DNA of 64,000 nucleotides. Source: Chryseobacterium sp. C-71. GTDB taxonomy: Bacteria; Bacteroidota; Bacteroidia; Flavobacteriales; Weeksellaceae. The DNA lies in NCBI RefSeq assembly GCF_020911865.1, contig NZ_CP087131.1, positions 2,170,001 to 2,234,000 on the forward strand, in the 5' to 3' direction. Position numbers and translations under genes: made by a program. Shown here piece after piece: positions 7,700 to 18,229 of the stretch (position 1 is its first letter; each line of letters begins with the position of its first letter). The notes under the pieces are model-generated. The model was given only the letters and a program-made list of their open reading frames with translations, was not told the origin of the DNA and did not search any database.

Positions 7700-8454
7700 C
7701 ATTGATTATATCTGCAATTGGTTTAGGCTTTGCATCCGGTTTTCACTGTATCGGAATGTGTGGTCCCATTGCTCTGTCGATGGGATTAACAAAAAAACAG
7801 GCGACCAATTTCTATCTTCAGAATTTAACCTATCAGTTCGGAAGAATTTTCACCTATTCATTATTGGGTGGAGTTTTAGGAATTATCGGTGAAGGATTTG
7901 AGATGGCAGGTTTTCAGCAGTATTTAACAATTGCTGTAGGAATTTTACTGATTGTGATGGCCTTATTTTCATTTGGTGGAAAAGATTTTGCTTCGAAAAT
8001 TCCTTTTTTATCTAAATTTTTATTTGCCGTTAAATCAAACTTAGGAAAACTTTTACAGAAAGCAGATTACCGCTCAAGATTCACCACAGGTGTTCTCAAC
8101 GGCTTTCTTCCCTGTGGAATGGTTTACATGGCATTAACAGCAAGTCTAGCTGCTGGCGGAATCTTACAGGGAGCATCATATATGGCTTTATTTGGTTTGG
8201 GCACACTTCCATTCATGTTTGCAGTAGTTTTGGTCGGAAACCTCATGAATCAGGCTTTCAGGCTTAAAATTTTAAAAGCAGTTCCGGTGATTATGATTCT
8301 TTTAGGAGGATTATTTATTCTGAGAGGTTTGGAGTTGGGAATCCCTTACATCTCTCCAAGAGCGGAAGCGATGACGATTTCTAAAGATAATAAAGGCGAA
8401 TGTCATTTGCCGGGAGATCATAGTACGCATCCGCACAGTGCGAATTGTCATTGA
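7690..8454 (+). CDS. TauE/SafE- and UreH-like membrane protein, probable metal handling for cbb3
   Basis: 254-residue polytopic membrane protein of the sulfite exporter TauE/SafE (UreH-like) superfamily, about six helices. An N-terminal HCIGMCGP motif and a GFLPCGMVY motif place conserved cysteines inside the membrane region. The C-terminal tail is rich in His and Cys (residues about 238-254), which suggests metal binding. It overlaps the FixH-like gene and ends the oxidase locus. Relatives beside cbb3 genes are thought to act in copper delivery; here that is inference from context and the His/Cys tail. Confidence 0.82.
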   Translation: MEIALIISAIGLGFASGFHCIGMCGPIALSMGLTKKQATNFYLQNLTYQFGRIFTYSLLGGVLGIIGEGFEMAGFQQYLTIAVGILLIVMALFSFGGKDFASKIPFLSKFLFAVKSNLGKLLQKADYRSRFTTGVLNGFLPCGMVYMALTASLAAGGILQGASYMALFGLGTLPFMFAVVLVGNLMNQAFRLKILKAVPVIMILLGGLFILRGLELGIPYISPRAEAMTISKDNKGECHLPGDHSTHPHSANCH

Positions 8455-8467
8455 TTTTTTCAATTAA

Positions 8468-10948
8468 TTATTTACCAATTGATTTATTGGAATCAACACT
8501 TTTTGTTTCGGTACTAATATCTACGCTGTCGTTTTTTGCTGTTTTATATTTCCCAAACGTATATGTCAACGATAACCTATACATTCTTTTTTCATCAACT
8601 CTATTGTAAAGTGTAGTTAGATTTTGATTATATAAAATGGCATTTAGTCCACTATTATTTAACGCATTTTGAACAGAGAAAATGCAATTGAAGGAATTGT
8701 TAAAAAATTTATTAGAAAGTGTCAATTCCAAAGATTGAACAGGTTTTCTGATATCATAAATATTATAAACTCCCTTAGACATATAACTATAATATACATT
8801 AAATTTAAAGTTTTTAGGAAGTACTATTTGAGAATATCCGTAAAAGTTCCAAGTAGCTTTATTAGAAGGAACTAATATAAATGAATTGTTAAATACTGTT
8901 TTATTATAACCTACATTAGCAAATAAAAAACTTACTTTGTCTGGATTTATATTACCATTTTTTAAAAAAGAAATTCCTTTTGTAAATAATGCAAAGGGAA
9001 GAGGTAATCCTAAATTTAAAGAATACGTTTTTACATTATCAAAACTTTTTAAAGTTTGTATGGATTGTAAATTAACTCCATCGTTTTCTATAATAGTTAA
9101 GTTTTTAGATTTTTCAAAAGAATATCCATACGATAAATATGCATAGTCAAATGCACTCAGTTTAGCTTGATAATTGTCTACTAACTCCGGGTTTAGAAAA
9201 GGATTTCCTACAGTTTGGAAATAAGAATTGTTAAAATTATTAATATTAGGGTCTAAATCATTATAATTTGGTTGGTTAATCTTTTTAGAATAATTTAAGG
9301 ATAAATTTATATCCGAATTTATTCTATAAAAGGCGTTTAAATTTGGGAAAAACTTTATATAATTAGTTTTTACGGTATATTCATTTGGATTTGATTTACT
9401 TCTAATATCATAATATTCCATTCTCAAACCTCCACTAAGTTCAAATTTTTTGATTTTCTTATTAAATGAAACATACGCAGCTAGATTTTTTTCATTATAA
9501 TTAAACGGAATTTCAGAATTAAAATTGGTATTTTCAAAAATTAAGGAATCAGGATTATTTAGATTATACTTACCTAATCTTTCTGCTTGAAAATCTCCAT
9601 ACCTCCCTCCTAAATACATACTTAAATCAAACTTTTTTATTTTAAATTCCCAATCATTTTTAACATAATAGTTCTGTACTTTTTTATCCGACTGATTTAT
9701 ACTATACAAATTAGTAAATCCCAATTGTTGAGTATTTCCAAAATATTCAGAATTAAAAATTTGCCCATATGCGGTTAGCTGAAAATTATTTCCTATAGAA
9801 TCAAGATTTTGTTTATATTTTAAAATTAGCTCATTACTACTATTTTCTGTGTGTGTGTTTGATAGTGATAAATTATTAATAGCAGGGATATAATCCTCAC
9901 TAAATATATTCATACTTGAAGATGGATTATGTCCGTTTATCCAAAAATTATAGTTCAAATTTATGCTAGACTTGTCCTTAAATGTATATTTCAGTCCTGT
10001 ACGAGCATAACTTCCCCTATATAGAAAAAGATTTTTTGTTTCTTGATTAAGTATAGGAGTTGAATTTTGTAGATTGTAAATACTTTTTACATCTATTTTT
10101 TGGTCACCTTCATTATAATAATAACCTGCTAGAAATTGCCATGAAATAGCATCATACTTTCCGTTTAATTGTAATGAAGTTGCATTTTTATAATTATGAT
10201 TTACTGTATTTATTGTATTTATGCTTCCATTAATTCCTCTTGTATTCTTCGATTTTGTTATAATATTAATAATCCCACCTGAAACATTCGCACTATACTT
10301 TGCTCCTGGACTATATATTAGTTCAATTTTATCAATCGAATTTGCGGGTAAACTATTCAAATAATTATTCAAGTCTTCACCAGAAATAGATGAGGGTTCA
10401 CCATCAATATATATTGCTGATATTTTGCCATTTTGAGCAATATAACCATTCGGAGTAACTATAACACCTGGAATTTTGGTAAGAGCTTCGTAAGTTGAGC
10501 CATTACTCAAAATGTTATTTCCGTCTACTAAAATAGTTATTTTATCAGCTTCTGATTTTATAAATCTTTTCTTTACTCCTGATAATGTCACTTCTTCAAT
10601 TGATTTAATTGATTCTAAATTAATATTTAAATCAATCTTTTTTTCATTTTCAGAAATCGTAATTTCTTTTATTACTGTTTGATAGTTTTCTTTAGAAATG
10701 TAGATTTTATACATTCCATTTTTCAAGGAAACCTTTTCAGTATGTGAACAGTTTGAAAAAGAAAACATGGAATTAAGGACACCATCCTCCATGTACGATA
10801 CTTTTATTTCGACATTATCTAATTTACAGTTAGAAATATTTATTAAAAACTCAATATTAGATTTATTAATGCTTTGAGAATAAGTTTTGACACTAATGAT
10901 TATCGACAATAAAAAAACAACATTTTTAAATAAGGAAATAATTGACAT
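8468..10948 (-). CDS. Outer-membrane beta-barrel receptor (TonB-dependent-receptor-like)
   Basis: 826 residues: signal peptide (1-25, ending TYSQS), an N-terminal beta-sandwich of the carboxypeptidase-regulatory type (about 28-110), a plug-like domain (about 115-235) with VDGN, KIPGV, YIDGEP and SGGIINIITK motifs, then a long beta-barrel typical of the Bacteroidota OMP beta-barrel family. No SusC-style signature is seen. It is the last gene of the Gly-rich peptide island and on the same strand, 120 nt after precursor A1, so uptake, export or surface display of the peptide product is a reasonable guess. Very AT-rich like the rest of the island. Substrate unknown. Confidence 0.85.
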   Translation of the reverse strand: MSIISLFKNVVFLLSIIISVKTYSQSINKSNIEFLINISNCKLDNVEIKVSYMEDGVLNSMFSFSNCSHTEKVSLKNGMYKIYISKENYQTVIKEITISENEKKIDLNINLESIKSIEEVTLSGVKKRFIKSEADKITILVDGNNILSNGSTYEALTKIPGVIVTPNGYIAQNGKISAIYIDGEPSSISGEDLNNYLNSLPANSIDKIELIYSPGAKYSANVSGGIINIITKSKNTRGINGSINTINTVNHNYKNATSLQLNGKYDAISWQFLAGYYYNEGDQKIDVKSIYNLQNSTPILNQETKNLFLYRGSYARTGLKYTFKDKSSINLNYNFWINGHNPSSSMNIFSEDYIPAINNLSLSNTHTENSSNELILKYKQNLDSIGNNFQLTAYGQIFNSEYFGNTQQLGFTNLYSINQSDKKVQNYYVKNDWEFKIKKFDLSMYLGGRYGDFQAERLGKYNLNNPDSLIFENTNFNSEIPFNYNEKNLAAYVSFNKKIKKFELSGGLRMEYYDIRSKSNPNEYTVKTNYIKFFPNLNAFYRINSDINLSLNYSKKINQPNYNDLDPNINNFNNSYFQTVGNPFLNPELVDNYQAKLSAFDYAYLSYGYSFEKSKNLTIIENDGVNLQSIQTLKSFDNVKTYSLNLGLPLPFALFTKGISFLKNGNINPDKVSFLFANVGYNKTVFNNSFILVPSNKATWNFYGYSQIVLPKNFKFNVYYSYMSKGVYNIYDIRKPVQSLELTLSNKFFNNSFNCIFSVQNALNNSGLNAILYNQNLTTLYNRVDEKRMYRLSLTYTFGKYKTAKNDSVDISTETKSVDSNKSIGK

Positions 10949-11068
10949 TTAATAAATAAAATTATTAAAGAATAAAAAAATATATTCTTTATGAGTTAAT
11001 TGTAAACAGATTTATGGAAATAATTAGTTTTTTGTAGAATCAAAAAATCTTTAATCATACAAATAAGA

Positions 11069-11335
11069 TTATTCTTTTTTTCCACTATTCCCTCCATTGC
11101 CGCCGTTACCTCCATTTCCTCCATTACTTCCCCCACCTCCATCACCTCCGCGACCTCCATCACCTCCGCGACCTCCACGTGTGCCATCCTTACCATTTTC
11201 ACCATCTTTTCCGTTCTCACCATCTTTTCCGTTCTCACCGTCTTTTCCTTTTTCACCATCATTTCCATCATTAGAAGAGTTCCAAGAACCTAACTCTAAT
11301 CTTTCTTCTAGTTCTTCAATTTTAATTGTAGTCAT
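11069..11335 (-). CDS. Gly-rich precursor-like peptide A1 (collagen-like repeat)
   Basis: 88 residues. The N-terminus carries IKIEELEERLELGSW (residues 4-18), shared with three other small genes at 15683-16519. The core then has Gly in every third position for about 20 uninterrupted triplets (GKD GEN repeats, then GGR, GGD and GGN). Unlike A2-A4 it lacks the Thr-rich tail and ends in a basic SGKKE. The 18-bp DNA repeat coding GKDGEN is visible at about 11207-11260. It lies 1 nt after the stop of the toroid gene. It looks like a leader-plus-core RiPP precursor; a structural collagen-like peptide is the alternative. No known family recognised. Confidence 0.7.
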   Translation of the reverse strand: MTTIKIEELEERLELGSWNSSNDGNDGEKGKDGENGKDGENGKDGENGKDGTRGGRGGDGGRGGDGGGGSNGGNGGNGGNGGNSGKKE

Positions 11336-11336
11336 T

Positions 11337-12032
11337 TTATATAATATTTTTTAATTTGTTTAAAGTATTTAAGCACACTGATGTTGTAAATAATCTTTTA
11401 AATTCCATAGCTCTGACATTTGTCCCAAAGGTCTTAATACTATCAAATTTAGTAATTTCTGGTATCGTAATTTCTGGTCTTGGAATCCTCAGTGAGTTAC
11501 TATTTTCCCATGAGCCATCACTATACTGATTTTTCAATAGATAATCTATTCCATTTTTAATATTCTTTTGAAAAGAATCAACTGTTGATAAACTTTTTAA
11601 AGCTAAGCCAGTATAAAATAAATTTTCTCCAAAAAAATCTGAAAAACTACCATTGGAATTTTGACATAAAGATATTTTTTTTAATTTGTTTTTAATAAGA
11701 CCCTCTGGAAAATCCACAACATGTGAAATAGAGGAAATATAATAAACACTATAAATATCATTAGTCCACCAATATGAATCTAATAAATCATTCTCTAATC
11801 TACTTGATATAAAATCTTTTAATTTCATCCATTCACTTTTATATGTCTCTTTATATTTATAAAGTACATGAAGTGCAACAGAGCTTACACAAAAATGAGA
11901 TTGAGTCCACCCATCATACGAAAAGTAATTTTCTGAAGAAAAATACTTACGTAGAATATTTTCATTATTATAAGTTGAAAACCCTCCATCATCATTTTGA
12001 TATCGTTTGTAATATATGGAACCTCTGTACAC
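11337..12032 (-). CDS. Alpha-alpha toroid (prenyltransferase/terpene-cyclase-like) repeat protein, probably N-terminally truncated
   Basis: 231 residues with about four helical-toroid repeats carrying QNDDGGF (12-18), QNSNGSF (about 120) and NQYSDGSW (about 168), as in the prenyltransferase/squalene-cyclase superfamily. No DxDD cyclase motif is seen. The only start is a GTG at 12032 lying inside the radical SAM coding frame, with an in-frame TAA immediately before it, and the first repeat begins almost at once; families of this fold usually have more repeats upstream. The beginning is therefore probably lost at the same junction that truncates the radical SAM gene. Role in the cluster unknown; possibly a tailoring or scaffold protein. 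Confidence 0.6.
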   Translation of the reverse strand: MYRGSIYYKRYQNDDGGFSTYNNENILRKYFSSENYFSYDGWTQSHFCVSSVALHVLYKYKETYKSEWMKLKDFISSRLENDLLDSYWWTNDIYSVYYISSISHVVDFPEGLIKNKLKKISLCQNSNGSFSDFFGENLFYTGLALKSLSTVDSFQKNIKNGIDYLLKNQYSDGSWENSNSLRIPRPEITIPEITKFDSIKTFGTNVRAMEFKRLFTTSVCLNTLNKLKNII

Positions 12033-13084
12033 TTAAATACATTTCCGAATGCATCATACACAGATGAATTTTTATTAGTTGCCAAACAAACATTATAAAC
12101 TCTCTTCGGTAGTAAAGAAACACCTTTACCATTCTTTATTAAATTTTCAAACCAAAATATTTCTTGGCTAGGGTAATCGAAATCTATTACTTCATCATTA
12201 CTTTTGTCGCCCCATTCATGAATTTTTGCAGAATAGAAATTTACACTATTTAAAATATTTTTTTCTTTTAAAAAATCAATTAGAGGAATAACCGTAGTTT
12301 GATTTTCCTTATCAACATTGCATCTTATGCTTATTTCAACGTTATAGTTTTCCTGAGCTTTTAACTTAATAATATTCTCTAAATTCCTGATAATTGTTTT
12401 AAATGTTCCTTTATCACTATTTTTCAGGTTTCTTCTTCCATTATGAGCGTTTTCAACACCATCTATTGTGATTTCTATAAAGTCTACGAATAGTTTATTA
12501 TATAAATCACGAAAAACTGATTCAGTCAGCTTTAAACCATTTGTAATAATTTTTGCACTATAAATAATATTAGCTTTATCACAAATCTCTTTTAATCGAT
12601 TTGTTATCTCAAACATACTACTCATACCAATCAGCGGCTCTGCTCCAAACCATCCAATTCTAAGTTCCGTAAAACTATTTATTTTTATTTTTCGCTCAAT
12701 TGCATCAACTATGTTTAATATATTTTTTTTGTTTAAATTAATGTTTTGATGATTTTGCCCACAATAAAAACATCCCATCTGGCAGTATGCAGAAGGCTGA
12801 ATAACTTCATAAAGAGTTGTATTATTAGTATTTACACTTTCGTTTTGATTTAATATTTCCGTAAATTCATCCTTTTGATTAGATACTAGAATTTGATTCG
12901 CTATTAGAGATTCCTTTATTTCTGTTGGTAAATTATCTAAATTTCCAACACATATACATTGCCAAACCGCAGTAGATATTTTTAATATTTTTCCGAATTT
13001 GGTAGAAAAGATAATTATTGCATCATCATATTCGGTAGAAACAATATATTTCGATAATGTCCAGACTGTTTCACTCATTTTCAT
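11885..13084 (-). CDS. Radical SAM peptide maturase with truncated SPASM domain
   Basis: The N-terminal part (1-75) resembles a peptide-recognition wing. The radical SAM core has C101-x3-C105-x2-C108 and the GGEP-equivalent GAEP (147-150). A SPASM domain begins with C333-x13-G347-x4-C352, exactly its opening motif, but the remaining cysteines are absent. After about residue 360 the sequence becomes non-protein-like (IKMMMEG and so on), and the other frame there encodes the toroid protein. The functional protein has thus lost roughly its last 50-80 residues to a deletion or frameshift. The start overlaps the M50 stop by ATGA. It would install radical-based modifications on the Gly-rich precursors; activity is now doubtful. 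Confidence 0.75.
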   Translation of the reverse strand: MKMSETVWTLSKYIVSTEYDDAIIIFSTKFGKILKISTAVWQCICVGNLDNLPTEIKESLIANQILVSNQKDEFTEILNQNESVNTNNTTLYEVIQPSAYCQMGCFYCGQNHQNINLNKKNILNIVDAIERKIKINSFTELRIGWFGAEPLIGMSSMFEITNRLKEICDKANIIYSAKIITNGLKLTESVFRDLYNKLFVDFIEITIDGVENAHNGRRNLKNSDKGTFKTIIRNLENIIKLKAQENYNVEISIRCNVDKENQTTVIPLIDFLKEKNILNSVNFYSAKIHEWGDKSNDEVIDFDYPSQEIFWFENLIKNGKGVSLLPKRVYNVCLATNKNSSVYDAFGNVFKCTEVPYITNDIKMMMEGFQLIIMKIFYVSIFLQKITFRMMGGLNLIFV

Positions 13085-13582
13085 TCTTTTTTCAATTTTA
13101 ATTTAATATTCTTTGATAAAGATTTTAATTGTGAAAAAACAATAAAATAAAATGCTAGAGGCAATGATATTTGCCAAAAAGTAATATTATTTTCGCTTTG
13201 CCAAAACCAGTTTTTTACATAATAATAAACATTAGTAGGAAATTTAAATAAATCTAAAAACATATATCTTGATACATAATACAAAAACCAAAGTAGAAAT
13301 AGGTTGCATAATAATCCGTAAACTATTAAAAATCCTTTGTGAGCATTAATCTTTACATCTTTTAATGATATAAAATTATATAGTTGCTCATTGGCTTTTG
13401 CTCTTAGATTATACGTATTGGTAATATCTGAAAGAATCCAATATCCATCAAATCTTAAAAATGGATTTATATTTACTATCGTATTGAATACTATCACAGA
13501 TGAACAATAATAGAAAAGCGGGTTATTTGTTAAAATATATAATAAAATTAAAAACAATACCAACAAACTTTCCATATACATT
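13081..13582 (-). pseudogene. M50-family peptidase, C-terminal fragment (split by IS256-family element)
   Basis: This is the 3' part of the gene whose 5' part is at 14947-15628. It encodes membrane helices and the NPFLRFDGYW motif, the family's third zinc-ligand region. Joining the two parts with the 8-bp duplication counted once gives exactly 1176 nt in frame (391 residues) with a seamless reading VDIAGMY-MESLLV. An ATG happens to fall in the duplication (13579-13581), so a fragment might still be made, but it lacks the HExxH active site. The radical SAM gene starts within its stop codon. Confidence 0.88.
13575..13582. repeat. Target-site duplication, left copy (TATACATT)
   Basis: Eight bases identical to 14947-14954, directly abutting the IS end. 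The length fits IS256-family insertion. Confidence 0.9.
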
Positions 13583-13618
13583 GGTAGTATCTCACTAACT
13601 GTGTAAGTTAAAAAGTTA
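13583..13618. repeat. IS terminal inverted repeat, left
   Basis: 36 bp pairing with 14911-14946 in inverted orientation; starts GGTAGT and ends AAAAAGTTA. Confidence 0.85.
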
Positions 13619-13622
13619 TTCT

Positions 13623-13659
13623 GTAAAATTTTGAGCCCTTATAGCTCAAAAAATTTTAC
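13623..13659. other. Subterminal hairpin inside the IS
   Basis: Arms 13623-13636 and 13644-13659 form a strong stem (GTAAAATTTTGAGC against GCTCAAAAAATTTTAC). Placed between the IS end and the transposase start it could block read-through transcription from outside; that role is inferred. Confidence 0.5.
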
Positions 13660-13697
13660 GGAAATAACTTTTTATTATTTTTAACCATTACATAGTT

Positions 13698-14900
13698 ATG
13701 ATCGACAAAGAAGATTTACTAAACAATAAGGATTTCTACAAATCCTTTAAGAACGGGGAAGATTTAACCTCATTCTTTAAAGAGCTGCACAAAAAAGCAG
13801 TAGAACATATGTTGGATGCTGAACTTGACAGCCATCTGGATAATTCAAAACACGAAAAAACCATTAATGGAAACTATCGGAACGGACACGCAACCAAGAG
13901 GATAAAGTCCTCATTCGGCGAATCAGAAATAAAAGTTCCCAGAGATAGGGAAGGCAGTTTTGAACCAGCATTAGTTCCAAAGAGACACAATATCATCGAT
14001 GGTTTGGAGAACATTATCATCTCATTTTATGCTAAAGGGATGAGTGTAAGTGATATTGAAGAGCAAATCAAAGAAATGTATGATTTTGACGTTTCGACTT
14101 CCACCATCTCACGAATCACCAATGCTGTTGCCAGCGAAGTGGTTGCCTGGCAGAACCGACCATTGGATGAAGTATATCTGATTGTCTGGATGGACGGGAT
14201 TGTTTTCAAGGTTCGTGAAAACTCCAAGGTCATCAACAAAACCATTTATTTAGCCGTAGGACTCAATCGTGAAGGTAAAAAAGAAGTTCTCGGGATGTGG
14301 CTCGGAAAGAACGAAAGCTCCAGCTTTTGGATGAATGTTCTGACCGATTTAAAAGCTCGTGGCGTAGAAGATATTCTCATCACTGCTACCGATAATCTGA
14401 ATGGATTTACCCAGACCATTCGCTCGGTTTTTCCGCAATCTCAAACCCAAATCTGCGTAGTTCACCAAATTAGAAATGCATGTAAATATGTTGTCTGGAA
14501 AGATAGGAAAGAATTTTCTGCAGATATGAAACACATTTATACTGCCCCCACAAAAGAAGCGGCAAAAGCAGCTTTGGACGACTTTGCAACCAAATGGGAA
14601 AGTAAATATCTCTATGCAATACAATCCTGGAGAACTCATTGGGACGAATTAACCGTCTTTTTTGAGTTTCCAATCGAGATTAGAAAAATAATTTACACGA
14701 CCAATTTAATTGAAAATCTAAACGGGAAAATCCGAAAATACACCAAAAACAAAATGTCTTTCCCTACAGATGATGCAGTTATAAAATCTGTTTATTTAGC
14801 ATTGAAAGAAGCAACTAAAAAATGGACCATGCCCATCCAAAATTGGGGATTGATTTTAAACCAATTTATGCTTATTTTTGAAAATAGGCTCAGATTATAA
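13698..14900 (+). CDS. IS256-family (mutator-type) transposase
   Basis: 400-residue DDE transposase, full length for the family. The catalytic triad fits Asp166 (WMDGI), Asp232 (ATDNLNG) and Glu339 (TTNLIENLN), with the mutator-family ICVVHQIRN region at about 252-260. It catalyses movement of the element that carries it. No frameshift or internal stop, so it is probably active. Confidence 0.96.
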
Positions 14901-14910
14901 ATCTAAGCCC

Positions 14911-14946
14911 TAACTTTTTAATTTACACACTTAATGGGACAGTGTC
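14911..14946. repeat. IS terminal inverted repeat, right
   Basis: 36 bp, inverted match to 13583-13618. Confidence 0.85.
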
Positions 14947-14954
14947 TATACATT
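14947..14954. repeat. Target-site duplication, right copy (TATACATT)
   Basis: Identical to 13575-13582; it lies within the M50 reading frame. Confidence 0.9.
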
Positions 14955-15628
14955 CCTGCAATATCTACAATAACCCTTTCTTTTCTTGATAATTTCCAAA
15001 CGTCAGTTACATCAGCATATAGAACAGGTGTTAATAAATAAAAACCAAAACCTATATCGCCATGTTTAGCCCCATAAGAACGACAGGAAATAGCATGACC
15101 AAATTCATGAAATAATAATGTTATTGCCATTGTTAAGGGCAATATGTATATTTTTTGAGAATCTAACTTAAAATTATGCACACCACTATAGATAAAACCT
15201 ACACAAAATATTATATTGAAAATAAAAGAAATTATTACAAAGTTCCTATTTTTAAATATGAATGATAAATATTTAGAAATGACTTCAACATATTTTGATT
15301 TAATCAATGTGAACTTTAAAAGTAGATATGAGTTTTTTGGCTTTATATGAATTTCATCTGATGTTATCTTTTTTAATTTATTAAATATTATTTCATGTAG
15401 TTGGTCTAATGATATATCAATTTCTTTGTCTTGCTTTAAATTATCTTGGATTTTTGATATAGAATTTTTCCCGTTAATATATTCTATTATGTGAAGTACT
15501 TGAGAGTCACAATATAAATATGCTCGTTGAACTTTATCAATTTCAATTATTAATAAAACATTTTCATTCTCTTTTTCAACAACAGAAAAAGAGTTATGTA
15601 TATTAGGTATTAGACTTTCTATATTCAT
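14947..15628 (-). pseudogene. PqqD-like domain/M50 peptidase, N-terminal fragment (split by IS)
   Basis: Residues about 25-90 look like a PqqD-type winged helix (a RiPP recognition element) and are followed by membrane helices and the zinc site HEFGH (174-178) within LLFHEFGHAISCRSYG. The frame runs into the IS and stops at 14918 after IS-coded residues. The start is taken as the ATG at 15628; a GTG at 15640 is also open. M50 proteins of this kind occur in peptide export or processing clusters. It follows precursor A2 by 54 nt. Function is presumably lost, since the NPxxxxDG half is disconnected. Confidence 0.87.
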
Positions 15629-15682
15629 ACAAAAAGCCACTTATTATTAAAAATAAGTGGTCAAAATTAAAAATTATAAATT

Positions 15683-15931
15683 TTATTTTGAAGGTTCGAC
15701 AGTTGTAGTTGTAGTTGTTGGAACTGAAGGCTTTGTTCCTCCACCAACATTAATACCAATAGTACCATCACCAGCATTTCCACCGTTTCCACCGTTTCCA
15801 CCGTTTCCACCATTTCCACCACTTCCAGAAGCTCCGCTTCCTCCGGCAGCTCCATCACCTCCATCACCTCCAACCCAGCTTCCCAATTCTAGTCTTTCTT
15901 CTAATTCTTGAATTCTAATTTCTTTTTTCAT
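15683..15931 (-). CDS. Gly-rich precursor-like peptide A2
   Basis: 82 residues: leader with IRIQELEERLELGSW, then a Gly-rich core with Gly at every third position for about 12 triplets (GGD, GAA, GGS, then repeated GGN units), then a conserved GDGTI and a tail of consecutive Thr ending VEPSK. The GGN units are encoded by a 9-bp tandem repeat (about 15780-15822). It is second or third in the promoter-proximal tandem array and directly precedes the M50 gene. Candidate RiPP substrate; no family recognised. Confidence 0.72.
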   Translation of the reverse strand: MKKEIRIQELEERLELGSWVGGDGGDGAAGGSGASGSGGNGGNGGNGGNGGNAGDGTIGINVGGGTKPSVPTTTTTTVEPSK

Positions 15932-15974
15932 AATAGTTAATATATTTAATTGTTAAAAAATGTTTCTAAAATAT

Positions 15975-16187
15975 TTATTTTGAAGAATCTATTGTTGTGG
16001 TAGGTTGTTGTGTTGTTGGAGTCGATGTCCCACTATTTCCATCTCCTATTGTAATAGTTCCTTCTCCACTACCACCATCACTACCGCCACAACCAGTTGC
16101 ATTACAATCACCGGATGAACTCTCTCCACCAAGCCAAATACCTAATTCTAATCTTTCTTCTAATTCTTGAATTTTAATTTCTTTAAT
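15975..16187 (-). pseudogene. Gly-rich precursor-like peptide A3, no ATG (ATT in its place)
   Basis: The frame encodes KEIKIQELEERLELGIW followed by a Gly/Ser core with two Cys (DCNATGC), GEGTITIG and a Thr/Pro/Gln tail ending DSSK, clearly a fourth member of the family. Aligned with A2, its initiator codon is ATT (16185-16187), preceded by another ATT and by a TAA 15 nt further up; there is no ATG, GTG or TTG between. It is either a recent start-codon loss or relies on a rare ATT start. The body has no stop, so decay, if real, is recent. 70 codons excluding stop. Confidence 0.6.
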
Positions 16188-16228
16188 AATTGTTAAGAAT
16201 ATTTACAAATTTTGTTTATTTCGGAATA

Positions 16229-16519
16229 CTACTGAGTTGATGTTGTTGGTTTTTGGGGTTCAATTGTAGTTGTAGATGTACCAATAGTACCATTTCCACC
16301 ACTTCCAGCATTTCCACCATTTCCACCATTTCCGCCAGTGTTTGCTCCTCCGCCACAGTCACAACTATTATTATTGCAACAGCCATTTCCACCATTTCCA
16401 CCATTTCCGCCATTTCCACCATCTCCTCCAGCCCAGCTTCCTAATTCTAATCTTTCTTCAAGTTCTTCAATCTTGAATTCACTAATATTTATTATTTTCT
16501 TTGAAATATCATTGATCAT
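16229..16519 (-). CDS. Gly-rich, Cys-containing precursor-like peptide A4
   Basis: 96 residues from the ATG at 16519: a longer leader (MINDISKK then FKIEELEERLELGSW), a core of GGN repeats interrupted by a cysteine knot-like segment CCNNNSCDC, more GGN repeats, then GNGTIG and a Thr/Pro tail. An upstream in-frame ATG at 16600 is rejected because the best promoter (16559-16588) lies between the two starts. It is the first gene of the island. The four Cys suggest a modified or disulfide-bearing core. No known family recognised. Confidence 0.7.
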   Translation of the reverse strand: MINDISKKIINISEFKIEELEERLELGSWAGGDGGNGGNGGNGGNGCCNNNSCDCGGGANTGGNGGNGGNAGSGGNGTIGTSTTTIEPQKPTTSTQ

Positions 16520-16558
16520 TATGTAAGTTTTTTTGAGTAACGAATCACATAGTAATGG

Positions 16559-16588
16559 CAAAAATATAAATATTTCTATTATTTGCAA
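16559..16588 (-). promoter_or_regulatory. Promoter of the Gly-rich peptide operon
   Basis: On the - strand: TTG (16588-16586), 19-nt spacer, TATTTTTG (16566-16559), a full match to the Bacteroidota TTG/TAnnTTTG pattern. The predicted start lies near 16552, giving a leader of about 33 nt to the A4 ATG. Confidence 0.55.
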
Positions 16589-16907
16589 ATAAATTCTCAA
16601 AATTCATCACCATTCATTGAAAATAATGAATTTGCAAAAATCACGAGTAAAATATTATTAATTTATAATTTTTATAAAATTTGAATTATATAAGAATATA
16701 TAGCAAATAGCAATTGAAAATTTTAAATTAAAAATAAATTGATATGTCGTATTAAATTTTCTAAAAGTATTTATTCATAGAATTATTAAAACTCTAGAAA
16801 GTTGGAAAAAAAGAAGAGAGGATTTGATTATTTAGTTTCAACTTTCATATTATTATCAGCAAAAAAAAATAACCCTCACAAATAAAATTTAATTAAAACA
16901 TAGATTT
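16589..16907. other. AT-rich intergenic region between serS and the peptide island
   Basis: About 320 bases of very AT-rich sequence. I see no open frame with a plausible start, no tRNA and no clear repeat in it. It probably marks the edge of the acquired island. Confidence 0.5.
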
Positions 16908-16941
16908 TAAAACAAAAAAACCACCGAAAAATCGGTGGTTT
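16908..16941 (-). terminator. Rho-independent terminator of serS
   Basis: 10-bp perfect stem AAACCACCGA / TCGGTGGTTT (16918-16927 / 16932-16941), 4-nt loop, with a T-tract on the - strand (complement of 16908-16917). Confidence 0.85.
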
Positions 16942-16960
16942 CATTATATAAATCTAAGTT

Positions 16961-18229
16961 TTAATTAATCAATTCAAACTTCGCATACTCAGCGATTTTC
17001 TTTGGAAGCTTAATTCCTTCTTCAGTCTGATTATTTTCAAGCAATGCTGCCATAATTCTCGGCAAAGCCATTGCAGAACCGTTCAAAGTATGAACTAACT
17101 GAGTTTTTCCGTCAGCTTTGTAACGACACTTCAGTCTGTTGGCCTGGAACGTTTCAAAATTTGAAACTGAACTTACTTCCAACCATTTCTCCTGAGCTGC
17201 ACTCCAAACTTCAAAATCATACGTCATTGCTGAAGCAAAACCTGTATCGCCACCGCACAATCTTAAAACTCTGTAAGGCAATTCAAGATCTGTAAGGATT
17301 TCTTTGATATGCTCTACCATTTCTTCCAAAACGACATAAGAATTTTCTGGTTTTTCTAATCTTACAATTTCTACCTTTTCAAATTGGTGAAGACGGTTCA
17401 AACCTCTTACGTGAGCTCCGTAACTTCCCGCTTCTCTTCTGTAACACTGAGAAAATGCCGTGTTTTTAATTGGAAGATCTTTTTCATCCAACAAAACATC
17501 ACGGTATAAATTCGTCACCGGAACTTCCGCTGTTGGGATTAAATACACATCATCTGCATTGATGTAGTACATCTGCCCTTCTTTGTCAGGCAACTGACCT
17601 GTTCCGTAACCTGAAGCTTCATTCACAACGTGAGGCGGATTCACTTCCAGATAACCTGCATCTACATTTTTATCTAAAAAATATTGAACCAAAGCTCTCT
17701 GCAATCTCGCACCTTTCCCAAAATAAACAGGGAAACCAGCACCTGCTATTTTTACACCTAATTCAAAATCAATTAAATTATATTTTTTTGCCAATTCCCA
17801 ATGAGGAATTGCACCTTCTCCTAAACCTTCCACATCATGAGACTGATAAATAATTTCGTTGTCATCTGCAGAAACTCCCGCTTTTACCAATTCGTAAGGC
17901 ACGTTTGGAATTTGATACAGAATATCTAATAATTTTTTCTCGATAACTTCCAATTGATACTTCAATTCTGCGCTCGACTCTTTGAACTGTGATGTTTTAG
18001 ATTTTGAGGCTTCAGCTTCTTCTTTTTTCCCTTCTTTCATCAGAATACCTATCTCTTTGGAGATTTTATTGATTTCTGAAAGTTGAGAATCTAATTCAAA
18101 CTGAATTCTTTTTCTCTCTTCGTCAGTAACGATAGCTTCGTCTACCAACTCAAGACCCTTGAATTGTCTTTTTTGAAGACCTTCTAAAACGCGTTCTTTG
18201 TTTTCGCGCAAAAAATTGACTTGTAACAT
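16961..18229 (-). CDS. serS: Seryl-tRNA synthetase
   Basis: 422 residues, normal length. Charges tRNA-Ser with serine in the cytoplasm. It shows the N-terminal coiled-coil tRNA-binding arm (about 25-105), class II motif 2 (FSQCYRREAGSYG, about 255-267) and motif 3 near the C-terminus (GSAMALPRIMAALLE). The start MLQVNFLRENKE is canonical for the family. Monocistronic, followed by a strong terminator; it marks the border between core genome and the peptide island. Confidence 0.98.
   Translation of the reverse strand: MLQVNFLRENKERVLEGLQKRQFKGLELVDEAIVTDEERKRIQFELDSQLSEINKISKEIGILMKEGKKEEAEASKSKTSQFKESSAELKYQLEVIEKKLLDILYQIPNVPYELVKAGVSADDNEIIYQSHDVEGLGEGAIPHWELAKKYNLIDFELGVKIAGAGFPVYFGKGARLQRALVQYFLDKNVDAGYLEVNPPHVVNEASGYGTGQLPDKEGQMYYINADDVYLIPTAEVPVTNLYRDVLLDEKDLPIKNTAFSQCYRREAGSYGAHVRGLNRLHQFEKVEIVRLEKPENSYVVLEEMVEHIKEILTDLELPYRVLRLCGGDTGFASAMTYDFEVWSAAQEKWLEVSSVSNFETFQANRLKCRYKADGKTQLVHTLNGSAMALPRIMAALLENNQTEEGIKLPKKIAEYAKFELIN

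Follow-up and report, generated by a model that had tools for sequence, protein, structure and literature searches.

A decayed RiPP gene cluster in Chryseobacterium sp. C-71 and its intact relative, a probable producer of peptides lipidated on tryptophan

Introduction

Which product is specified by four small, glycine-rich genes that share one leader, and can the genes around them still make it? The question is raised by a locus of Chryseobacterium sp. C-71, found in a stretch of 64,000 nucleotides (hereafter the window; contig NZ_CP087131.1, positions 2,170,001 to 2,234,000). The original prediction described a gene cluster for a ribosomally synthesized and post-translationally modified peptide (RiPP), with precursor genes A1 to A4, an M50 protease, a radical SAM/SPASM protein, a toroid repeat protein and an outer-membrane receptor. 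The four small open reading frames (ORFs) do carry the leader ELEERLELG(S/I)W, and the M50, radical SAM, toroid and receptor (OMP_b-brl_3/TonB-type) genes are present, though several are damaged (Table 1). The window holds a recently broken, decayed copy of a RiPP cluster, and the product of its intact relative is probably a set of small peptides whose tryptophan (Trp) bears a terpene lipid.

Results

The window cluster is broken

A search with an M50 profile identified locus L061 (genome G213, same genus), which was used as the reference for the intact cluster. L061 contains three precursor genes, genes for an M50 protein (391 aa), a radical SAM protein (439 aa) and a toroid protein (658 aa), a fourth precursor gene and the receptor gene (827 aa). 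Compared to L061, the M50 gene of the window is cut in two by an IS256 element of 1,364 bp, flanked by 8-bp target duplications (14947-14954 and 13575-13582). Six full-length copies of this element with 100% identity are present in the genome, a sign of recent movement. In addition, about 1.53 kb is deleted relative to L061. The deletion removes the last five cysteines of the SPASM region of the radical SAM protein (matching L061 residues 394-418), so that a complete SPASM domain is not retained, together with the N-terminal two thirds of the toroid protein; the truncated radical SAM ORF and the C-terminal toroid fragment join at the junction near 12001. That the toroid ORF encodes a whole repeat protein is ruled out, as it covers only residues 438-658 of the 658 residues in L061. 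The M50, radical SAM and toroid genes of the original prediction are a split gene, a truncated gene and a C-terminal fragment, respectively. Since all three are broken, the locus should yield no mature product alone, and strain C-71 should make no product from it unless other loci stand in. A gene cluster of rich appearance can thus be a recent wreck.

A second locus of the same genome (L062, G000:C1:3048000-3064000, at about 3.05 Mb) contains, after three ORFs of about 250 aa, an intact M50 gene, a gene for a stand-alone prenyl-diphosphate-synthase-like enzyme and a KLEERKEF-TFYC precursor. Its M50 protein might act on the window precursors.

The leader is conserved and linked to the M50 protease

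When the 11 leader codons of A4, A2 and A1 were compared with their L061 counterparts, 14 synonymous and no non-synonymous differences were found in all, which argues that the leader is under selection and did not arise by chance. The same 11 codons of A3 show two synonymous and two non-synonymous differences, as if A3 had escaped selection, to judge from these few sites. With residues 1-40 of A2 as a query against a 5.8-billion database, four proteins (E up to 1) were found among 14 candidates, and a strict DNA pattern of the leader matched three stretches in the genome_contigs collection. These few matches indicate that ELEERLELG itself is rare and that the wider family needs an LExRxE profile.

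Such a leader profile was searched in a genus sample (173 same-genus genomes), a phylum sample (395 genomes) and an order sample (376 genomes), and an M50 profile in the genus sample. Each of the 69 leader matches in the genus has an M50 match no more than 4.6 kb away. Conversely, M50 matches were found in 27 of the 173 genomes (32 matches, with the two pieces of one gene counted twice), and 30 of the 32 have a leader within 6 kb; the exceptions are in G210 and G132. In the phylum sample the leader profile matched 13 genomes, in nine of which the match lies beside an M50 gene (G000, G119, G265, G278, G229, G300, G588, G501 and G260). The leader of G225 adjoins only the fusion gene described below (12-kb contig) and that of G531 adjoins neither, while the matches in G358 and G469 sit in ORFs of 271 and 820 aa and are probably due to chance. 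The order sample gave matches in nine genomes; G855 had three in this search and two in the later precursor listing.

The M50 protein has the HExxH motif and the M50 membrane core. Its N-terminus is predicted to resemble a RiPP recognition element (RRE), as had been suggested, judged by a succession of three strands and three helices and by likeness to solved RREs; the Foldseek E value of 0.18 is not strong alone. The constant leader, the variable cores, the predicted RRE-like N-terminal fold and the consistent adjacency of leader and M50 gene in the genus support the RiPP reading of the locus. The expectation that leaders always lie beside both an M50 and a radical SAM gene stands in part: the M50 gene is never missing in the genus, and two of the four phylum-sample genomes in which it is not adjacent are the chance-like cases, but a radical SAM gene is often missing.

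The two M50 relatives without a leader match (L145 and L080, in G132 and G210) lie near a 321-aa protein lacking a Pfam match and near fatty-acid-type genes. In L075 and L077 (G022 and G017), four near-identical ELEERFET precursors adjoin an M50 gene and a gene for an arginase-family protein, near fatty-acid-type genes; neither the prenyl-diphosphate-synthase-like nor the cyclase domain described below was matched there. L078 and L079 contain three to six tandem ELEERLEM precursors with CCTGSD-type ends beside an M50 gene, and L078 also an acyltransferase-like protein. In Chryseolinea serpens (L021), a solitary leader precursor (EFGSW) is located by a CarboxypepD-type outer-membrane protein, and a cluster with fusion and M50 genes is on a different contig. 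The same short leader tag beside other modifying enzymes elsewhere in the phylum suggests that one platform for peptide modification may be shared.

The intact toroid protein is a predicted prenyltransferase-cyclase fusion that co-occurs with tryptophan

The toroid gene of L061 encodes a fusion (P-C) of a trans-prenyl-diphosphate-synthase (trans-IDS) fold, in which both Asp-rich motifs are present (P domain), with an MstE-like class II terpene cyclase, in which the DxD acid motif is present (C domain). The window copy lacks the complete enzyme and its P domain, and the remaining fragment begins after the DxD motif. According to section 9 of the review PMC13290415, ChrPC is a P-C fusion that prenylates a Trp of a RiPP and cyclises the prenyl group. 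Because the L061 fusion has the ChrPC architecture, the Trp that closes the leader is the likely lipid site.

Trp is present in all four precursors of the window, in all four of L061 and in all 27 precursors of 16 loci with a P-C fusion. At the level of loci, it occurs anywhere in the core in 16/16 with the fusion versus 6/22 leader loci without it, and no more than seven residues from the leader motif in 13/16 versus 0/22 (Fisher p 1e-7). As loci L072, L160, L161 and L172 share an identical precursor, the test was repeated with related loci collapsed into groups formed by eye, and the association remained (10/11 versus 0/10; p 3.4e-5). In the three exceptions (L070, L071 and L133) the Trp is near the C-terminus. 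The test omits the window, which retains just a C fragment, L021, whose 8 kb contain no enzyme, L158, which lacks a precursor, and L145 and L080, whose M50 genes have no leader nearby. Loci L172, L173 and L174 were added afterwards; two later fusion loci agree, giving 15/18 in total, and one of the two repeats a known precursor. On account of this association, we take the Trp of GSW, at the end of the apparent leader, to be most plausibly the first core residue that is modified.

In the phylum sample, the P-C profile matched 11 of the 395 genomes, eight of which have both domains, and all eight also have a leader match. The other cases are the genome of the window (G000; the fragment plus a stand-alone P enzyme), G256 (cyclase only) and G434 (P only). 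The cyclase of G256 is encoded by a stand-alone MstE-like gene of 350 aa (L158), and no leader precursor was found in its 13-kb contig. In the four loci with the identical precursor, P and C are found as separate ORFs or with intervening stops.

A branch with a stand-alone P enzyme may use tyrosine

In fifteen loci the M50 gene is accompanied by a P enzyme of about 270-320 aa that stands alone, without a cyclase. All 14 enzymes compared have the second Asp-rich motif and its Gln, and the first is at the expected place in 12 of them, displaced in L069 and not found in L159 by the expression used. Tyrosine (Tyr) is at core position 3 in all 23 precursors of these 15 loci (counted by eye), and none has a Trp within seven residues of the leader. 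We consider it possible, though rather doubtful, that Bacteroidota share one platform, consisting of an LExRxE leader, an M50 protease whose fused RRE-like domain recognizes it, and exchangeable modifiers (P-C, radical SAM, cytochrome P450 and others), in which the stand-alone-P branch lipidates Tyr at core position 3 and not Trp.

Several observations weigh against Tyr as the acceptor. In 16 of the 23 precursors the residue after the Tyr is a Cys; 5/14 loci have a Trp further along, in four of them within a C-terminal GGW, as would fit a PalQ-like reaction; and most of these loci are closely related. L159 and L174 are stand-alone-P loci from other families, and one of the 27 fusion-type precursors (in L066) has a Tyr at position 3. 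The review PMC13290415 states that every trans-IDS-like peptide prenyltransferase characterised acts on Trp, and on that account a Tyr or Cys acceptor, if true, would be new for this fold. The choice between Trp and Tyr within one enzyme fold would then be open to direct testing.

The radical SAM protein is optional

The CxxxCxxC motif is present in the radical SAM proteins of the window and L061, and the SPASM domain of L061 reaches the TIGR04085 cut-off (37.8 of 27 bits). The original prediction took the radical SAM enzyme as a defining partner of the leader. This does not hold: with the window protein as a query nothing was found in 13 stand-alone-P loci, a single query that distant radical SAM proteins could escape. 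In the part of the loci searched for it, radical SAM is optional in this system.

Six same-genus radical SAM relatives (E < 1e-50) were considered as members of the same system and rejected, their loci of about 4 kb being without M50 or toroid match. No leader-like small ORF was found in these six loci by the expression then used, and two have a receptor match. In L070 (G147), P-C, M50, radical SAM and cytochrome P450 genes lie beside precursors ending in ICW; gene orders in L071 and L133 are similar, L070 being the one locus tested for the cytochrome P450.

Discussion

Proposed pathway

The window cluster is likely a decayed copy of one whose intact form (L061) gives peptides in which the Trp next to the leader bears a cyclised isoprenoid. 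The results above establish the order of the genes, the conservation of the leader, the predicted folds and motifs, the two linkages and the lesions; each chemical step below, like the step order, cleavage site, transport and function, we infer. The LExRxE leader would bind the RRE-like domain at the M50 N-terminus, and probably also the N-termini of other enzymes where these are RRE-like. The P domain would take a prenyl diphosphate and attach its prenyl group to the GSW Trp, after which the MstE-like C domain would protonate and then cyclise the prenyl chain. Where present, the radical SAM/SPASM protein would modify the core, whether Gly-rich or Cys-bearing. The peptide, now lipidated, may then settle in the inner membrane, where the M50 protease would cleave off the leader near the membrane, and the product would exit the cell. 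The co-encoded receptor would serve export, anchoring or re-uptake, and fits several possible roles of the product (toxin, signal, metal carrier or surface lipopeptide).

Alternative explanations

The radical SAM/SPASM protein could instead be the defining modifier of a Gly-rich core, as in the GrrM/OscB systems, with the toroid protein as a scaffold or leader-binding helper. The radical SAM/SPASM gene is indeed found in both the window and L061, the cores of these loci are Gly-rich, and radical SAM proteins also occur in L070, L071 and L133 and, by Pfam, in L138, L139 and L142. The likeness of the L061 protein to GrrM/OscB is weak, however (TIGR04261, 46.3 of 310 bits, below the cut-off), the window radical SAM query found nothing in four loci with leader, P-C and M50 genes (L066, L072, L134 and L137), cores of fusion loci are non-repeat sequences of 9-30 residues, and the fusion retains catalytic motifs that a scaffold does not need. 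We regard this explanation as unlikely. Less probable still is that the product of the P-C fusion is a free terpenoid, with the adjacent peptides as unrelated passengers or carriers. Both folds match enzymes of free-terpenoid metabolism and stand-alone cyclase genes such as that of L158 occur; this would leave unexplained why 16 fusion loci carry a leader ORF, with Trp in every precursor, and why each phylum-sample genome with both domains has a leader match, and it lacks the precedent that ChrPC provides for peptide lipidation.

The GXY and GGN repeats could also point to surface structural proteins (collagen-like, Gly-rich) that are no RiPP precursors at all, and A1 weakly matches SclB (19.5 of 325 bits). 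Yet the Pfam Collagen match of A1 is below the cut-off (E 0.68, 10.2 of 27.2 bits), A2 and A4 have no match to that family, and the identical leader, linked to the M50 gene, also precedes short cores without repeats. Of the explanations weighed we find this one the most improbable.

Comparison with known systems

The original prediction knew of no described class for this combination, which is too strong, since the L061 toroid protein has the architecture that the available part of PMC13290415 reports, for ChrPC, to place a cyclised isoprenoid on Trp. ChrPC and NctPC (Hubrich et al., 2024, as given in that part of PMC13290415) have the same P + C fusion, with a trans-IDS-like P domain and an MstE-like cyclase, and an internal Trp in the precursor; the likeness is one of reported architecture. 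Unlike these, the clusters described here have long Gly-rich cores, a radical SAM/SPASM protein and an OMP_b-brl_3 receptor, and the window copy is broken. The key enzyme type of the cluster is thus already described, and Gly-rich cores, radical SAM and receptor are variant features. ComQ and PalQ (PMC5331326; PMC10853753) likewise use an isoprenoid-synthase fold on a RiPP Trp. They differ in having no cyclase domain, neither an M50 protease nor an LExRxE leader is seen in the portions of these two texts considered, and according to those portions ComQ has the first Asp-rich motif only, whereas both are present here.

M50 proteases are known from other RiPP clusters (EpeP, daptide HExxH, LiaK/YydH), and EpeP, thought to cut and export the epipeptide according to the part of PMC10885120 available, is a precedent for the M50 step. 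The daptide and LiaK families of NCBIfam are the best matches of the L061 M50 protein, but below their equivalog cut-offs (112.4 of 300 and 62.5 of 225 bits), and the L061 type is set apart from all of these proteases by its predicted RRE-like N-terminal domain. The L061 radical SAM protein shares the radical SAM and SPASM domains with the maturases TIGR04463, Clo7bot and CefB, its best matches, all below cut-off (182 of 525, 153 of 600 and 137 of 600 bits, respectively).

A mining study of Bacteroidales, in the part available (PMC10352776), tied its precursors mainly to GG-motif systems with peptidase-containing ATP-binding transporters; in the locus described here, of the same phylum, neither a GG motif nor such a transporter was seen, and an M50 protease is found instead. 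None of the literature matches listed describes the leader/M50 system, which does not establish its absence from print; the platform and its Tyr-bearing branch may be new. If true, the short leader motif together with the M50 gene would offer a way to trace peptides of Bacteroidota that carry terpene lipids or other modifications.

Layout of the window locus

Table 1. Features of the locus, in coordinates of the window.
Feature	Position	Strand	Remarks
Promoter-like match, Bacteroidota type	16559..16588	-	5' of A4; pattern match; similar element ahead of L061 precursors
Precursor A4	16229..16519	-	Leader, GSW, GGN repeats and Cys segment, Thr-rich tail
Precursor A3	15975..16190	-	Leader with GIW; frame without ATG/GTG/TTG start
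Precursor A2	15683..15931	-	Leader, GSW, GGN repeats, Thr-rich tail
Terminator-like hairpin and T run	15631..15660	-	Between A2 and M50 start; also in L061
M50 protease, 5' piece	14947..15628	-	RRE-like N-domain (predicted) and HEFGH; 81% identity to L061
IS256-family insertion sequence	13583..14946	+	Transposase 13698-14900 (+)
M50 protease, 3' piece (as ORF)	13081..13581	-	85% identity to L061
Radical SAM/SPASM ORF	11885..13084	-	CxxxCxxC present; C-terminal SPASM cysteines gone at junction near 12001
P-C fusion, C-terminal third	11337..12032	-	Terpene-cyclase part without DxD motif; L061 residues 438-658
Precursor A1	11069..11335	-	Leader, GSW, collagen-like and GGN repeats
Outer-membrane receptor OMP_b-brl_3, full-length	8468..10948	-	82% identity to L061

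The GTG start of the 5' M50 ORF was rejected in favor of the ATG at 15628, which agrees with the start in L061. No Rfam element reached the gathering threshold and no tRNA was detected. The promoter pattern of Bacteroidota is TTG-N17..22-TAnnTTTG. A scan of 8000-17200 for this pattern, without a shuffle control, gave one full match on the minus strand, at 16588-16559; the similar element of L061 was judged by eye. The proposal of a single promoter oversimplifies the locus: a terminator-like hairpin at 15660-15637 (-10.5 kcal/mol, z -4.8), with a counterpart in L061, divides A2 from the M50 start. Such a hairpin may allow a surplus of precursors over enzymes.

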